From contig JAUZRR010000001.1 of the NCBI GenBank assembly GCA_030950285.1, forward strand, positions 1 to 64,000: a stretch of DNA of 64,000 nt, in the 5' to 3' direction. Source of the DNA: Planctomycetota bacterium. Its GTDB lineage: Bacteria > Planctomycetota > Phycisphaerae > Phycisphaerales > UBA1924. The notes below the pieces were generated by a model. The model was not told the origin of the DNA, made no database searches, and was given only the letters and a program-made list of their open reading frames with translations. The position numbers and the translations under genes were made by a program. Below, piece by piece: positions 5,890 through 54,215 of the stretch. Position 1 is the first letter of the stretch; each line of letters begins with the position of its first letter.

Positions 5890-7029
5890 ATGCACAAGCC
5901 CATCCTCTATGCCGCGCTCTCGATCGTGTCCTGCTGCACTGTGTTCCTGAACGCGGGGGAGGACGACGCCGCGATTGCTGCGGACGACATGATCAAGAAC
6001 CTGCTCCAACGCCTGGAGACCGCGGTGCTCGCTGGGGATGCCGAGGCGTATCTCGCCAACATCGACACCACGGCCAGCGAATGGGCAACCGAACAGACCA
6101 ATTGGGCAGCCGACCTCGCCGAGCACACGCCGGAGATGTTTGACCTGAACCTCCTGCCCCGTGTCGAGGTTCCCGCAGAGCTCAACCCGTCGGAACACGT
6201 CGCGGCCCTCCGCATGACCTGGCAGTTCCCAGACGGGGGGGAACGTCGGGTCGAGTTCCCCGCACGGTTTACCCTCGACGAGCACCAGAACTGGCACTAC
6301 GCCGGCGAGGCGTGGACGAGCGTGGCTTCGGAGGACGGCCAGACCATCGTGCTGTTTCTCACCGACGACCTGCAAGAGATCGCCGAGCGGATCACCGAAA
6401 TGATGCCCGGCATCCGCGAGCACGTGGACACGGGGTTCCAGACCCACCTCGAGCACCCGCAGGTGGTCAAGCTCTACACGGACATGGGGCACCTGCAACA
6501 GTCGATCTACCTGAGCTATACCGACGGGCTGGGTGGGTGGAACGAGCCGGGCGAGGCGATCAAGATCATGGCGAGCCCGCGGATGGGCGCGCGGCGGCTG
6601 CGGATCCTGCTGTCGCACGAGTACGGGCACGTTGCGACGTTTACCTATCACCAGGACGTCGCGGAGAATCTGCCCTGGTGGGTCGCGGAGGGTGTGGCCG
6701 AGCTCGCGGCCGAGCGGTATTCGGGGGACCGGGCGCGGGAAGGCACCGAGGCTGCGGTCCGCGCGTGGGCCGAGGCCGGCGCGCTGGCGGCGTGGGAGGA
6801 CATGGCCGACTTTCGCGAGACGCCCTCGCGGCTGCACGGGCATGTGTATTTGCAGGGGCACCACTTTGTGGGGTACGTCTCCGAGCGGTTCGGGCGGTCG
6901 GCGCGGAATGCGTGGGTCCGTCGGCTTGCGTCGGGCGACTCGCTCGATGAGGCCACGCTCGAAGCGCTGGGCGTGAGCTTTGCCGACCTCGACGGGCAGT
7001 GGCGTGCGAGCCTCTCGGCCGACGAGTAG
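5890..7029 (+). CDS. Secreted gluzincin-type metallopeptidase (peptidase MA-like)
   Basis: A 379-residue protein starting at ATG 5890 with an N-terminal signal peptide (about residues 1-20, LYAALSIVSCCTVFLNAG). The zinc-protease signature SHEYGH (HExxH) is near residues 242-246, followed about 24 residues later by WVAEGVAELAAE, where the Glu is the expected third zinc ligand of gluzincins. The preceding 220 residues include an NTF2/SnoaL-like stretch (LLQRLETAVLAGDAEAYLANID) and resemble no specific family I can name. It is probably a periplasmic or extracellular peptidase of the MA clan; substrate unknown. It lies alone between a terminator and an exosortase-type secreted protein. Confidence 0.78.
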   Translation: MHKPILYAALSIVSCCTVFLNAGEDDAAIAADDMIKNLLQRLETAVLAGDAEAYLANIDTTASEWATEQTNWAADLAEHTPEMFDLNLLPRVEVPAELNPSEHVAALRMTWQFPDGGERRVEFPARFTLDEHQNWHYAGEAWTSVASEDGQTIVLFLTDDLQEIAERITEMMPGIREHVDTGFQTHLEHPQVVKLYTDMGHLQQSIYLSYTDGLGGWNEPGEAIKIMASPRMGARRLRILLSHEYGHVATFTYHQDVAENLPWWVAEGVAELAAERYSGDRAREGTEAAVRAWAEAGALAAWEDMADFRETPSRLHGHVYLQGHHFVGYVSERFGRSARNAWVRRLASGDSLDEATLEALGVSFADLDGQWRASLSADE

Positions 7030-49712: not shown

Positions 49713-50918
49713 CTACCGATTGATGTCTCTGCCGCGCGAGCCGGAGATGGTGTGCATCACGGGATCGGCGCCGCTCTTATGAAACGATCCGGGCCAATCG
49801 CCTTCTCCGGTTGGATAGGGAGGTCCCAAAAAGGCATCGGCAACTCGAAACTCTGCACTGCCATCAACACAGGCGATCCCCTGCCGCTCGCCGGGTTCGA
49901 CCGACGGAATATCGTCTTTCCACACGATCTCGCCGTCGTTGGGAGCAAAGTACACCCCCTTGGAGCTTGGAAAGTCGACCTCATAAGCCCGGACCGCCCG
50001 CCATTGGTCTGGCCCGGTCCGGCGTTCCTGCTCCCAGAAACTGCTTCCCGCGAGGAATGTACACGAGTACAGATAATCGGTCATCACATACGAGGGTGAT
50101 GTCAGCGGAGCAAAGAAGGATTTATGAAGGAGTTGCCCTTCGTAGTACTCCGGGGCCAAGGCAAAGTTCCAAAATGCATGGGCATCGAAGTAGCTCAGGC
50201 GAAGAATCCTGTTCTCATGCCGAAAGATCGTGTAGGTCACTTTTGGATCGGTGAAAGCAGGGAACGTGTCGTCCCAATCGCCAAGATACGCATTGATCGT
50301 CTGCCCGTGGGAGCGGAGATTTGTGGTTGAGACAACCTCCCGGGCGCTGTTTCTTGCTCGGCCCAGTGCCGGTAGGAGCAGGGCAACAAGCAACCCGAGA
50401 ATCGCTATCATGAGAATCAGTTCAAGAAGCGTGAACGCCCGCCGAGTGTTCGTGCCAGCCGCAGCAAGAGGGCGCCCGCCCCCCCGATCCCGCACACGGC
50501 CGAGCAAGGCATCCGCCGTCAGCATTGCAAGAAGCACGCCGTTTCTGACGAGCACAAAGGTCGTGCTGCTCTGGAGTTCATGGAAGACCGCGAGTCTGCC
50601 GAGGCAGCCGCAGTCCGGTACCTTTCCCGTCATCCACTGCACCGAGTAGGCTACGGCAAAGATGACAAGCAGCGAGGCCATGGCACCGGCCATGAGCCGC
50701 CTTTGAATCCTAAGAAGCCACATGCCACCCACAAGAACCTCAAGCGGCGGCACCGTGTAGAGCGCAACCCACTTGACCGCAAAGGGCAGAACTGCCCACT
50801 CAGAAAGACTCTCGGCGAAAGCCGGCAGGTCCGCGAGCTTCGCGACACCCGCAAACGCCATGAAGACCGCCACGGCACCCGTCAAGAACTTTGCCGGATG
50901 TCGTGGCGTGTCATCCAT
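49713..50918 (-). CDS. MauE-like redox membrane domain fused to a complete pseudopilin
   Basis: A 401-residue fusion in one uninterrupted frame. Residues 1-142 form a four-helix MauE/DoxX-like domain (helices about 11-30, 47-68, 76-96, 120-142) with VAKLAD, the PPLEVLVGG motif and Cys103-Gly-Cys105 in the loop between helices 3 and 4. A basic linker (RVRDRGGGRP) leads to a full prepilin signal, TRRA/FTLLELILMIAI, with Phe162 at +1 and Glu166 at +5, then a pseudopilin body ending in a VDGSAEF DG motif near residue 370. Even helix number places the prepilin leader in the cytoplasm, as prepilin peptidase requires. Cleavage would release two products. Ala instead of Gly at -1 is a caution. Confidence 0.82.
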   Translation of the reverse strand: MDDTPRHPAKFLTGAVAVFMAFAGVAKLADLPAFAESLSEWAVLPFAVKWVALYTVPPLEVLVGGMWLLRIQRRLMAGAMASLLVIFAVAYSVQWMTGKVPDCGCLGRLAVFHELQSSTTFVLVRNGVLLAMLTADALLGRVRDRGGGRPLAAAGTNTRRAFTLLELILMIAILGLLVALLLPALGRARNSAREVVSTTNLRSHGQTINAYLGDWDDTFPAFTDPKVTYTIFRHENRILRLSYFDAHAFWNFALAPEYYEGQLLHKSFFAPLTSPSYVMTDYLYSCTFLAGSSFWEQERRTGPDQWRAVRAYEVDFPSSKGVYFAPNDGEIVWKDDIPSVEPGERQGIACVDGSAEFRVADAFLGPPYPTGEGDWPGSFHKSGADPVMHTISGSRGRDINR

Positions 50919-50952: not shown

Positions 50953-51335
50953 TCAGTTGCAAGAGGCGCCGTCCGGCTGCTCACACGCAGCCGCATAGGT
51001 GCGAAGCACACCATCTGTCTCGCACCCGTTTTCGCCCACCACGCGCTTGTAGTACTTGCAGTTCACAGTGAAATTGTTCGGAGGTCCCGAAAGGCCGAAC
51101 GACCTGAACTTCACCGACGGACAATCGCCATCTTCAATGAAATCATCTTTGCAGTTAAGGTCGTCAGGCACTTTGCTGCATGCTGTCACCGTCGGGCCTT
51201 CGACAAGACAGGATGGATTTCCTCCCCCGGGGCCGTCACCCGCAAAGGCCGCGAAGGGAAGGCACCCAGTATCATCGGAAACGCAACGAATGCTCCGAAA
51301 GGGAATAACCGCAAGGCAGTGCTGTACTGTTTCAT
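50953..51335 (-). CDS. Small secreted Cys-rich protein, apparently frameshifted
   Basis: Two overlapping frames make one probable product. From ATG 51335 (GGAG upstream) a signal-peptide-like start MKQYSTALRLFPFGAFVAF is read, but this frame stops at 51186. The frame ending at 50953 encodes a mature-looking segment with eight spaced cysteines (PSCLVEG, TACSK, NCKDD, DCPS, NCKYY, GCETD, ACEQ, ASCN) but lacks a start. They would join by a shift near 51240-51290. It may be a pseudogene, a base error or programmed frameshifting. It lies 34 bases before the MauE-prepilin gene, whose redox domain could form its disulfides; that link is inference. Confidence 0.55.
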
Positions 51336-51403: not shown

Positions 51404-52576
51404 TCATCGACCAACACTCGAGCGCCCGACACGCACCCACAGCAGCGCCCCAACCATTACAACGAGTGTTGCCCAGCCAATCCAGCGCAGGGTGTTCGAA
51501 GCGCGCGGCTTTGCACTTGACGTCTCGGCATAGAGCAGATTTTGAGATTCGTCCAACCACTGAACTTCATCACGTCCGGTCCGCAGATCACTAACCTTGG
51601 ATATGGTGACCACTCCTCGAACCGGATCCTCGCCAGCGATGTCCGGGATCGAGATAGCTCGCCGAACAACCTCATCCGAAACCCTCTCCGCGCCGAGATA
51701 TCTTGTACTCTTCATCGGGCGGTGGTCGAGTTGCTTCGCCGCACGAGCCGCGATCCAAACCCCAACATCTCTATTATAGGACCAGTCTTCAAAGTACCAT
51801 TCTGATGCGCTTGACGGCTCGCCGTTAGTCTTTCCGATGAATGCAACGGAGGTAACAAATCCCCGCCCGGCCGCAGAATCCCAACGCCCACGCCATTCAC
51901 CTATAACTCCGCCAGAGTTTACGGCCTGCGCGATCCACACATCGTTCTGAATACTTATGAGAGTTGGCGTGCTTTCCTGGAACCACCCGAATGCAAAGTT
52001 GCCGAAGACCAAAGAGTTCCATACCGATCGTATCACTTCGGTCCCGCGTTCAGCGAAGCGACGTTTCACCTCGGCCTCATGCTCGGCGTCGACCAGAGTG
52101 AGTTGCTGCTTTGACATCCCCCACACCAGAGCGCCGGAGCGCGCCGTGTCCCAGTAGCCCCCTTCATCTCCGGTGTATTCCAGTGACTGTGAAAGGCGCC
52201 ACTGGTCTTCAGAACTGTACCACACCTTGTGAACGGTTCGATCCGGTCCATGTGCAAGACGGCGTTCATAGATTTCCAGGTCCTGACGCATCGGATGGTC
52301 GGGGCGGTTTCGGACTTCTGCTCGCAATGCACGAATTTCAGCTGCTGTAGGTACTTCGACAACATCTACAACATATTCAAGAACAATATCAGGAGGAAGT
52401 TGTGCATCTGCCGCGTTGGCCCACTCCGCACGAAGCCAAGCCTCTACCGTCTCCCTGTCCACACTCTGCGCCTGCGCTGCCGAAACCGGGGCAGCCAAGA
52501 TCGTCGCTGCGCCAACGAGAAGGAGTACGGCTGTCCCACAAAGAGGCATTCGGCTTCGGAAAAGCATGCTCTTCAT
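51404..52576 (-). CDS. Secreted protein with C-terminal membrane anchor, function unknown
   Basis: A 390-residue protein. Residues 1-37 are a signal peptide (MPLCGTAVLLLVGAATILAAP within it, ending near AAQAQS). The ectodomain has Trp-rich beta segments (KVWYSSEDQWRLSQSLEYTG, NFAFGWFQESTPTLISIQND, ASEWYFEDWSYNRDVGVWIA). One helix WIGWATLVVMVGALLWVRVG near 366-385 anchors the C-terminus, followed by a few basic residues. No family recognised. It heads a three-gene minus-strand cassette of lower GC than its surroundings, and a (GA)14 tract lies 16-46 bases upstream of its start. Confidence 0.7.
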   Translation of the reverse strand: MKSMLFRSRMPLCGTAVLLLVGAATILAAPVSAAQAQSVDRETVEAWLRAEWANAADAQLPPDIVLEYVVDVVEVPTAAEIRALRAEVRNRPDHPMRQDLEIYERRLAHGPDRTVHKVWYSSEDQWRLSQSLEYTGDEGGYWDTARSGALVWGMSKQQLTLVDAEHEAEVKRRFAERGTEVIRSVWNSLVFGNFAFGWFQESTPTLISIQNDVWIAQAVNSGGVIGEWRGRWDSAAGRGFVTSVAFIGKTNGEPSSASEWYFEDWSYNRDVGVWIAARAAKQLDHRPMKSTRYLGAERVSDEVVRRAISIPDIAGEDPVRGVVTISKVSDLRTGRDEVQWLDESQNLLYAETSSAKPRASNTLRWIGWATLVVMVGALLWVRVGRSSVGR

Positions 52577-52590
52577 GCCCCAAGTCTAAC

Positions 52591-52624
<34 letters not shown>

Positions 52625-52799: not shown

Positions 52800-54215
52800 T
52801 CAGCAGCCGGCAGTCCAGGCGTTGAGGAACGCCAACACGTCCTGGGTGTTCACGCTGCCGTCGTTGTTGATGTCGGCTTCGGGGTCGCCGGCGGTCCATG
52901 CGTTCAGGAACGCCAGCACGTCCTGGGTGTTGACGCTGCCGTCACCGTTCCAGTCGGCAAAGCAGGCGCCGTCGGCCGCGGCCTGGACACCGGCGCCGAC
53001 ATCGACCCGGCCCCAGCCCCAGTAGGAATCGTTGCCCGATGCGCCCAGGTCCTCGGCAGTCTCGAAGAGGATCTGCTCGACCTCAAGGTTGGTCAGGCTC
53101 GGGTTGGCAGCCCAGATCATGCTGGCGACGCCGTTGGTGACGGGGGTTGCCATGCTTGTCCCGGACCAGTACCCGTACCCGCCGTCGCGGGTGGTCGAGC
53201 CGATGTCCACGCCGGGGGCGAAGATATCGACGCCCAGGCCGTACGACGAAAAGCTCGCCTTGGCGTCGCCGTAGGTTGTTGCGCCGACGACAACAACGTC
53301 CTGCCAGTCCCACGACGAGTGGTTGGTGTTGCTGTTACCCGCGGCGTACATATAGATGCCACCGATCGAGTGGATGTATTCGCCCATGGTCTGGATGGGT
53401 TCGTAGTTCACACCCGAGTAGCTGGCGCTGACGATGCTCGCGCCGTTCTCGATCGCCCACTGGGCGCCCTCGAGGAGGTCCTCGTAGTACGCGCCGCCGC
53501 CGCTGTTGATCGCGACGCGGATCATCATGATCTGGGCGTTCCAGTTGACACCGGCGACACCGTTGGCGTTGTTGGTGATCGCCGCGGCACAGCCGGCGAC
53601 GTGCGTGCCGTGGCCGTGGATGTCATCGACGCTGCCGCCGTCGTCTTCGGAGATGTTGTTGTAGGCGTCGTACCCGTTGACGATCTTGCCCGCGAGGTCG
53701 GAGTGGTCTTTATAGATGCCGGTGTCGGTAAACGCGATGATGACCGAGGCATCGCCGTGGGTGATGTCCCACGCATCGGGGGAGTTGATCTGGGGGTGGT
53801 GCCACTGGCTGGCGTACTGCGGATCGTTGGGGATCTCGAGCGGGAAGCAGATCCAGTTGGGGACGGCGTACTCAAAGAGACCGGTCGCCATGAGCTGCTC
53901 GCCGAACGCGTTCTCGGCATCGCCCGGCTGTCCGAGCCCGCGGACGACCGGGGCGTCGATGATGTAGTAATCGACCTTGGCGTTCTGGCGTGCAAAGCCG
54001 TCGGCCATCATCGCGCGGGCGATGCTGTCCTGCTCGGCGGTGAGGTCCTGCTTGACGCGCACGATCATCGAGCCGGAGAACTCGAGATTGCCTTCCTGAT
54101 GGACGAACGGCACGTAGCCGCCGTCGGCGTCAAAGTGCCCGGGGCGGGCCCCGTCGGAGGCCATTGCGGCCGAGGCAAGCCCGGCTGCGCAGACAATGAT
54201 CGCTGACTTTTTCAT
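52800..54215 (-). CDS. Secreted subtilisin-like serine protease with C-terminal dockerin-type repeats
   Basis: A 471-residue S8 protease. Residues 1-19 are a signal peptide (MKKSAIIVCAAGLASAAMA), followed by an inhibitor-like prodomain. The catalytic triad is clear: Asp in IAFTDTGIYKDH, His in GHGTHVAGC, Ser in SGTSMATPV near residue 390. The last 60 residues hold two repeats, WNGDGSVNTQDVLAFLNAW and INNDGSVNTQDVLAFLNAW, each with the Asp/Asn-rich calcium loop of a type I dockerin-like pair, ending in Cys. GGAAAGG precedes ATG 54215. A matching dockerin pair occurs at 62.3 kb. The cohesin-like partner is unknown. Confidence 0.92.
   Translation of the reverse strand: MKKSAIIVCAAGLASAAMASDGARPGHFDADGGYVPFVHQEGNLEFSGSMIVRVKQDLTAEQDSIARAMMADGFARQNAKVDYYIIDAPVVRGLGQPGDAENAFGEQLMATGLFEYAVPNWICFPLEIPNDPQYASQWHHPQINSPDAWDITHGDASVIIAFTDTGIYKDHSDLAGKIVNGYDAYNNISEDDGGSVDDIHGHGTHVAGCAAAITNNANGVAGVNWNAQIMMIRVAINSGGGAYYEDLLEGAQWAIENGASIVSASYSGVNYEPIQTMGEYIHSIGGIYMYAAGNSNTNHSSWDWQDVVVVGATTYGDAKASFSSYGLGVDIFAPGVDIGSTTRDGGYGYWSGTSMATPVTNGVASMIWAANPSLTNLEVEQILFETAEDLGASGNDSYWGWGRVDVGAGVQAAADGACFADWNGDGSVNTQDVLAFLNAWTAGDPEADINNDGSVNTQDVLAFLNAWTAGC

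Follow-up and report, generated by a model that had tools for sequence, protein, structure and literature searches.

A single open reading frame joins a MauE-type redox domain to a complete pseudopilin, and our favored reading, which we hold to be somewhat probable, is that the fusion supplies the oxidation and pilin functions of a cassette, present in several copies and probably phase-variable, by which diverse disulfide-rich proteins would be made, oxidised and presented or exported. The fusion was found in the window, the first 64,000 nucleotides of contig JAUZRR010000001.1 (assembly GCA_030950285.1) from a Planctomycetota bacterium of the order Phycisphaerales, and its features and those of its neighbors are collected in Table 1. 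In the open-licence literature, we found no description of either the fusion or the cassette.

Table 1. Features of the MauE-pseudopilin cassette in the window and the prepilin peptidase gene of the same genome
Feature	Position	Strand	Basis
Gene C, MauE-pseudopilin fusion, 401 aa	49713..50918 (including stop)	-	Single ORF
MauE domain, residues 11-135, four TM helices	50514..50888	-	Pfam and AlphaFold2
C-x-C (CGC, residues 103-105), helix 3-4 loop, predicted periplasmic	50604..50612	-	
Variable basic linker, residues 145-161, low pLDDT	50436..50486	-	AlphaFold2 and charge counts
Prepilin segment, residues 158-182	50373..50447	-	Profile, alignment, solved-pilin comparison
Predicted cut A161/F162	Between bases 50436 and 50435	-	Site conservation and solved pilins
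Pseudopilin, residues 162-401	49716..50435	-	Body conserved across cassette family
Gene B, small Cys-rich secreted protein	50953..51335	-	Three-frame translation, equivalents at other loci
Gene A, 390 aa, secreted/membrane-anchored	51404..52576	-	40 homologous ORFs
-10-like hexamer TAGACT	52583..52588	-	Consensus match only
(TC)14 simple-sequence repeat (AG on + strand)	52594..52621	-	
Prepilin peptidase, own genome	L125:1348-3018	-	A24_N E 1e-30

Read on the minus strand from the ATG at 50918, the fusion has no internal stops, and its first part matches Pfam MauE (PF07291) with E 2.4e-20 (73.6 bits vs a cut-off of 27). AlphaFold2 predicts the protein with a mean pLDDT of 86.6 and places long helices at residues 8-29, 46-68, 73-96 and 119-144, a low-confidence linker at about 145-163, and then a 51-residue pilin helix at 164-214; Foldseek with this whole model returned no significant match. 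The C-x-C lies between the third and fourth helices, and among 37 aligned fusions C105 is kept in all and C103 in more than 90%. The pilin part has a prepilin site, Gly or Ala before Phe-Thr-Leu-x-Glu, followed by a hydrophobic helix, as in type IV pilins and pseudopilins, and its body ends with HT-x-DG-x-RGRD, which is conserved in the cassette family. Its N_methyl match is sub-threshold (17.1 vs 21.2 bits), and residues 160-211 match the start of GspG (TIGR01710, 25.2 vs 88.85 bits), a match of the N-terminus only that stays below the equivalog cut-off. The mature starts of the solved pilins GspG (5wda), PilA (6xxd) and geopilin (2m7g) all fall at position 156 of the alignment profile, which we place at F162 of the fusion.

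The numbers of lysine and arginine residues in the loops agree with the positive-inside rule for an N-in/C-in topology. Per sequence, K+R vs D+E is 2.2 vs 0.2 in loop 2 and 4.4 vs 1.2 in the linker, and the two predicted periplasmic loops, unlike the predicted cytoplasmic ones, are not K/R-rich. Hence, with four helices ahead of it and K/R-rich loops on the predicted cytoplasmic side, the pilin leader is predicted to be cytoplasmic. The original prediction of an in-frame union of MauE with a complete pseudopilin, with CGC in a predicted periplasmic loop, a basic linker, and an even number of helices that leaves the leader in the cytoplasm, is borne out on each of these points; an odd number of helices ahead of the pilin is ruled out by the four in the AlphaFold2 model.

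At the predicted cut, Gly (in 25) or Ala (in 12) stands at -1 of all 37 aligned fusions, +1 is Phe in 32 of them and +5 is Glu in every one, while linker positions -6 to -4 drift. In prepilins, residue -1 is required for cutting and not for an uncut helix. The genome encodes a prepilin peptidase, whose Peptidase_A24 match reaches 26.6 bits (cut-off 26.5), along with T2SSE (type II/IV) ATPases and secretins; in this peptidase, of 557 aa, a large insert separates the N-terminal region from the catalytic one. Since residue -1 is retained while the linker drifts, and since fused and split forms are freely swapped (see below), cutting is the best explanation, and from these alignments we judge it likely that the prepilin peptidase cuts the fusion after Ala161. 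The cleavable site that had been proposed thus stands, with its invariant -1 Gly/Ala and +5 Glu and a peptidase gene in the genome; 'self-separating' was inexact, since the cut would come from a separate enzyme.

The earlier proposal had called for a search for this architecture in other genomes. By profile search of loci from this genome and 60 relatives, we found 39 fused ORFs, along with 16 pairs of split, adjacent genes that could be used, counted over loci that are related rather than independent, with mechanical ORF calls and genomes that are mostly metagenome assemblies. Across Phycisphaerales, about 40 ORFs at further loci and in further genomes are fused, and they come from many assemblies made separately, that of the single-contig G302 among them; homologues are not solely separate genes. 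Hence, the fusion is more than chance. This genome has six cassettes, five fused and one split, and the split genes generally are adjacent or overlap, often by about 4 bases. In a MauE-plus-pilin tree of 53 units there are two deep clades, each with 100/100 support: clade I mixes 22 fused with 16 split members, and all 15 members of clade II are fused. The C-x-C cysteines are kept in 37/38 and 38/38 members of clade I and in 15/15 of clade II. The fused or split label changes at least 7 times on this tree (7-9 in bootstraps), and this repeated interchange argues that the two halves work as separate products.

The pilin body was found in 27 of 298 genomes of a class-wide sample, and 20 of these belong to the family of the window, as does G035 of the genome set. 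A degenerate DNA pattern for the C-terminal motif HT-x-[DE]G-x-RGRD matched 23 named records, of which 21 are labelled Phycisphaerales, Phycisphaerae or Phycisphaeraceae and two cyanobacteria. These two (L147, QWIH01000006.1, and L148, RHKP01000001.1, labelled Leptolyngbya and Cyanobacteria) contain the motif, and we take both to be Phycisphaerales under a wrong label. We found no phage or plasmid matches. At three more distant loci (L171, L175 and L177), the pilin, MauE and a B2-like Cys-rich ORF are separate and sometimes divergent genes, an arrangement that is possibly the ancestral state.

That two ordinary neighboring genes were joined by accident, through a lost stop codon or an assembly error, is a reading to which we give almost no credence; split pairs do exist and are often adjacent or overlapping by some 4 bases, but the distribution of the fused ORFs over many separate assemblies, G302 among them, refutes it, the cut site is conserved, and the fused clade II is old, with its 100/100 support. 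An unlikely alternative with more in its favor is that the fusion remains uncut as a five-helix membrane protein, with the pilin helix and body serving as a periplasmic substrate-binding arm tethered to MauE. Fused and adjacent-gene forms alike keep both parts together, as this reading would have it, and clade II is fused in every tree member; opposed to it are the Gly/Ala at -1 amid a drifting linker, the invariant Glu at +5, the presence of the peptidase gene, and the interchange of fused and split forms. A cut fusion whose halves act separately is the reading that we carry forward.

The fusion has recurrent neighbors, in the order A - B - MauE(-)pilin in clade I and B2 - A2 - fusion in clade II. 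Gene A has an N-terminal signal helix (13-35), a C-terminal TM segment (361-388), and between them a LolA-like beta fold; its AlphaFold2 model (pLDDT 89.7) matches LolA3 by Foldseek (E 1.5e-6, probability 1.00, TM 0.50 on the target), which places this predicted structure in the LolA superfamily fold, and Pfam gives no match. Gene B encodes 6-14 cysteines, B2 is similar, and both usually begin with a signal-peptide-like segment; a Pfam search of A2, B and B2 gave nothing significant. In the window, the signal peptide of gene B is read from the ATG at 51335 and the mature part, rich in cysteine (8 Cys, counted from NPSC), lies in another frame; hence, this copy is apparently frameshifted, by mutation or sequence error. 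Gene B is the least conserved part of the cassette, with a median of 10.9 identical residues per 100, compared with 22.8 for A, 30.4 for MauE and 34.3 for the pilin.

Gene B and MauE come and go together. Of 58 gene-A loci, 52 have both, 4 have neither, and 2 are exceptions (L097, with MauE and no B, and L154, with a truncated B and no MauE), so that presence or absence is joint in 56/58 (Fisher p 6e-5, a value that treats related loci as independent). In clade II, B2 accompanies 17 of 18 fused loci, the remaining locus being cut by a contig end, and three A2 loci without an adjacent MauE also lack B2. A first impression that clade II has no Cys-rich gene was overturned by a broader scan, which showed B2 to lie upstream of A2. 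Four loci (L100, L107, L160 and L088) have A and the pilin without MauE and are natural controls. In G035, two loci (L101:455-2480 and L102:455-2498) are 94-95% identical in MauE and pilin, and 37% in A and 45% in B; they look as if an A-B pair had been exchanged beside a common MauE-pilin. Just upstream of the cassette in the window, at 52803-54206 on the minus strand, is a subtilase (S8) that carries, at its C-terminus, a dockerin-like DINNDGSVNTQDVLAFLNAWTAG motif in tandem duplicate (an 81-bp repeat at 52806-52958).

Only A/A2 and B/B2 are conserved beside MauE-pilin, and this set does not include a thioredoxin-like MauD partner. The genome has ten MauE matches, and neither DsbB nor VKOR was detected in it; in a sample of 41 genomes of relatives none has DsbB, and 4 of the 25 family members have VKOR. 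MauE is suspected to be a disulfide factor and occurs in candidate peptide clusters, according to PMC7794033. Since the operon that recurs around it also encodes a secreted protein rich in cysteine, the MauE domain has a likely substrate, and going by these gene neighborhoods it probably forms disulfides in B. Oxidation of the pilin itself is unlikely, as no pilin cysteine is strongly conserved (one column reaches 20/38 in clade I, and clade II has no such column), and a substrate in A or A2 is rejected, as neither has a conserved cysteine.

Upstream of gene A in the window, the (TC)14 repeat lies 17 bp from the start, just upstream of the -10-like TAGACT; no convincing -35 is present at normal spacing in this cassette. 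We found a simple-sequence repeat within 120 bp upstream of the first gene in 39/75 cassettes vs 6/421 control genes (p 1e-30, again with related loci treated as independent); at the chosen threshold about half of the cassettes have a tract, and tract lengths are taken from MAG consensus and are uncertain. The background is 0.008 expected per 120 bp, so about 0.6 would be expected where 39 are seen, and of the six control-gene tracts two precede other pilins and two adjoin, divergently, a gene A of a cassette. All six cassettes of this genome have a repeat. In 14 cassettes, a poly-G/C tract separates a -35 element (at least 5/6) from TAnnnT, with spacers of 11-26 bases, and orthologous tracts differ in length (C15 in L031 and C13 in L070). 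Elsewhere in this genome, a stand-alone MauE gene (L038, G000:C38; tract at 7007, minus strand) has TTGACA-(G)11-TAGATT nearby, in which the spacer is 16 bases long. With repeats that lie in promoters and are enriched over background, as at SSR contingency loci, promoter switching by the spacer repeats is highly probable on sequence grounds. We found no report of such promoter-spacer phase variation in environmental Planctomycetota among open-licence papers. The earlier interpretation of this DNA held for the fusion, its even helices and its cleavable site, and missed both the recurrent Cys-rich operon and the repeat promoters.

Two further alternatives concern what the cassette does. It is rather improbable that the repeats reflect noise in the assemblies or GC-rich runs of an ordinary kind and that the cassettes do not vary in phase: the MAG-consensus tract lengths, and the fact that only about half of the loci have a tract, would fit noise, but the excess over background and over controls does not, tracts are bracketed by TTGACA and TAnnnT, and other repeat types (TC, GA, TGGGCA, TTC) occupy the same place. 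We give a one-in-several chance to MauE having another redox job, reducing, isomerising, or passing electrons to an unseen partner, in place of forming disulfides in B. The chemistry of MauE is unproven, there is no conserved thioredoxin-like partner gene, and L097 has MauE without B; this must be set against the close association of MauE with a gene for a secreted Cys-rich protein, seen in both types of operon, and the absence of DsbB and VKOR from most of these genomes.

Disulfide formation in B under a switchable promoter remains our preferred reading, and the proposed mechanism is as follows. Slippage of the hypermutable repeat between -35 and -10 would alter the spacer and switch each cassette on or off. 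Gene B, as its sequence indicates, would then give a small, fast-diverging, Sec-exported protein with its 6-14 cysteines, in which MauE, through its periplasmic C-x-C, would drive disulfide formation, a role like the one proposed for MauE in methylamine dehydrogenase, whose small subunit is disulfide-rich. The fusion polypeptide would insert the pilin in the membrane so that the leader stays cytoplasmic, and prepilin peptidase, as the site conservation argues well, would cut after Ala161 to give separate MauE and mature pseudopilin. The pseudopilin might then enter a type II secretion or type IV pilus filament and present or export B, with gene A, the membrane-anchored LolA-fold protein, perhaps acting as the periplasmic carrier or chaperone of B. 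This pilin-based presentation or export of B helped by A is tentative, and we would put it at somewhat below an even chance.

The cassette resembles known systems in parts. As with MauE of the mau cluster, its four-helix domain with C-x-C is above the Pfam cut-off and co-occurs with a small disulfide-rich exported protein (in mau, the methylamine dehydrogenase small subunit); unlike in mau, it is fused to or beside a pilin, no MauD/thioredoxin or dehydrogenase genes are among the conserved neighbors, and B is without a Pfam match. The pilin shares with type II/IV pseudopilins (GspG, PilA) the Gly/Ala plus Phe-Thr-Leu-x-Glu site, a 50-residue helix, a small beta body, and the ATPases, secretins and prepilin peptidase in the genome, whereas a four-helix redox domain replaces the leader, the body has its own conserved end, HT-x-DG-x-RGRD, and the fusion pilin is dedicated to the cassette rather than to a pilus operon. 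The BT_3928 family (NCBIfam NF045576) likewise has a second domain after a MauE/DoxX-like one at the N-terminus, and residues 21-132 match it weakly, but at 24.5 of 250 bits the fusion is far under the cut-off, with no pilin match there. Gene A resembles LolA/RseB-like periplasmic carriers by structure comparison, but it is anchored by a C-terminal helix and has no sequence match to them. Promoter-spacer phase variation is known for Neisseria porA. It is also described for the H. influenzae fimbriae hif (ref. 120 in PMC11868660, as cited there). The cassette repeat similarly sits between the -35 and -10 elements, whose spacing would change with slippage, but here the setting is Phycisphaerales, several cassettes are found per genome, and what is carried is a secreted Cys-rich protein that has a redox domain of its own. 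In decRiPPter clusters too, MauE homologues are found in candidate peptide clusters and disulfide maturation is suspected, but those clusters are from Streptomyces and the portion of the source consulted mentions no pilin or LolA-like gene (PMC7794033).

Taken as a whole, the cassettes may represent a new class of surface or secretion system, a possibility that we rate at nearly even, in which each genome would have many phase-variable cassettes, every one with a different exported disulfide-rich protein and with its own oxidising membrane domain and pseudopilin, these last two made as a single precursor from which prepilin peptidase would release an enzyme and a filament subunit. If this is right, prepilin peptidase is used to split a two-function precursor, MauE gains a natural small substrate with which its unproven chemistry becomes testable, and promoter-spacer phase variation is revealed in environmental Planctomycetota. 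A genome with several such secreted Cys-rich proteins, each switchable and diverging fast, would suggest interaction with predators, phages or neighbors.
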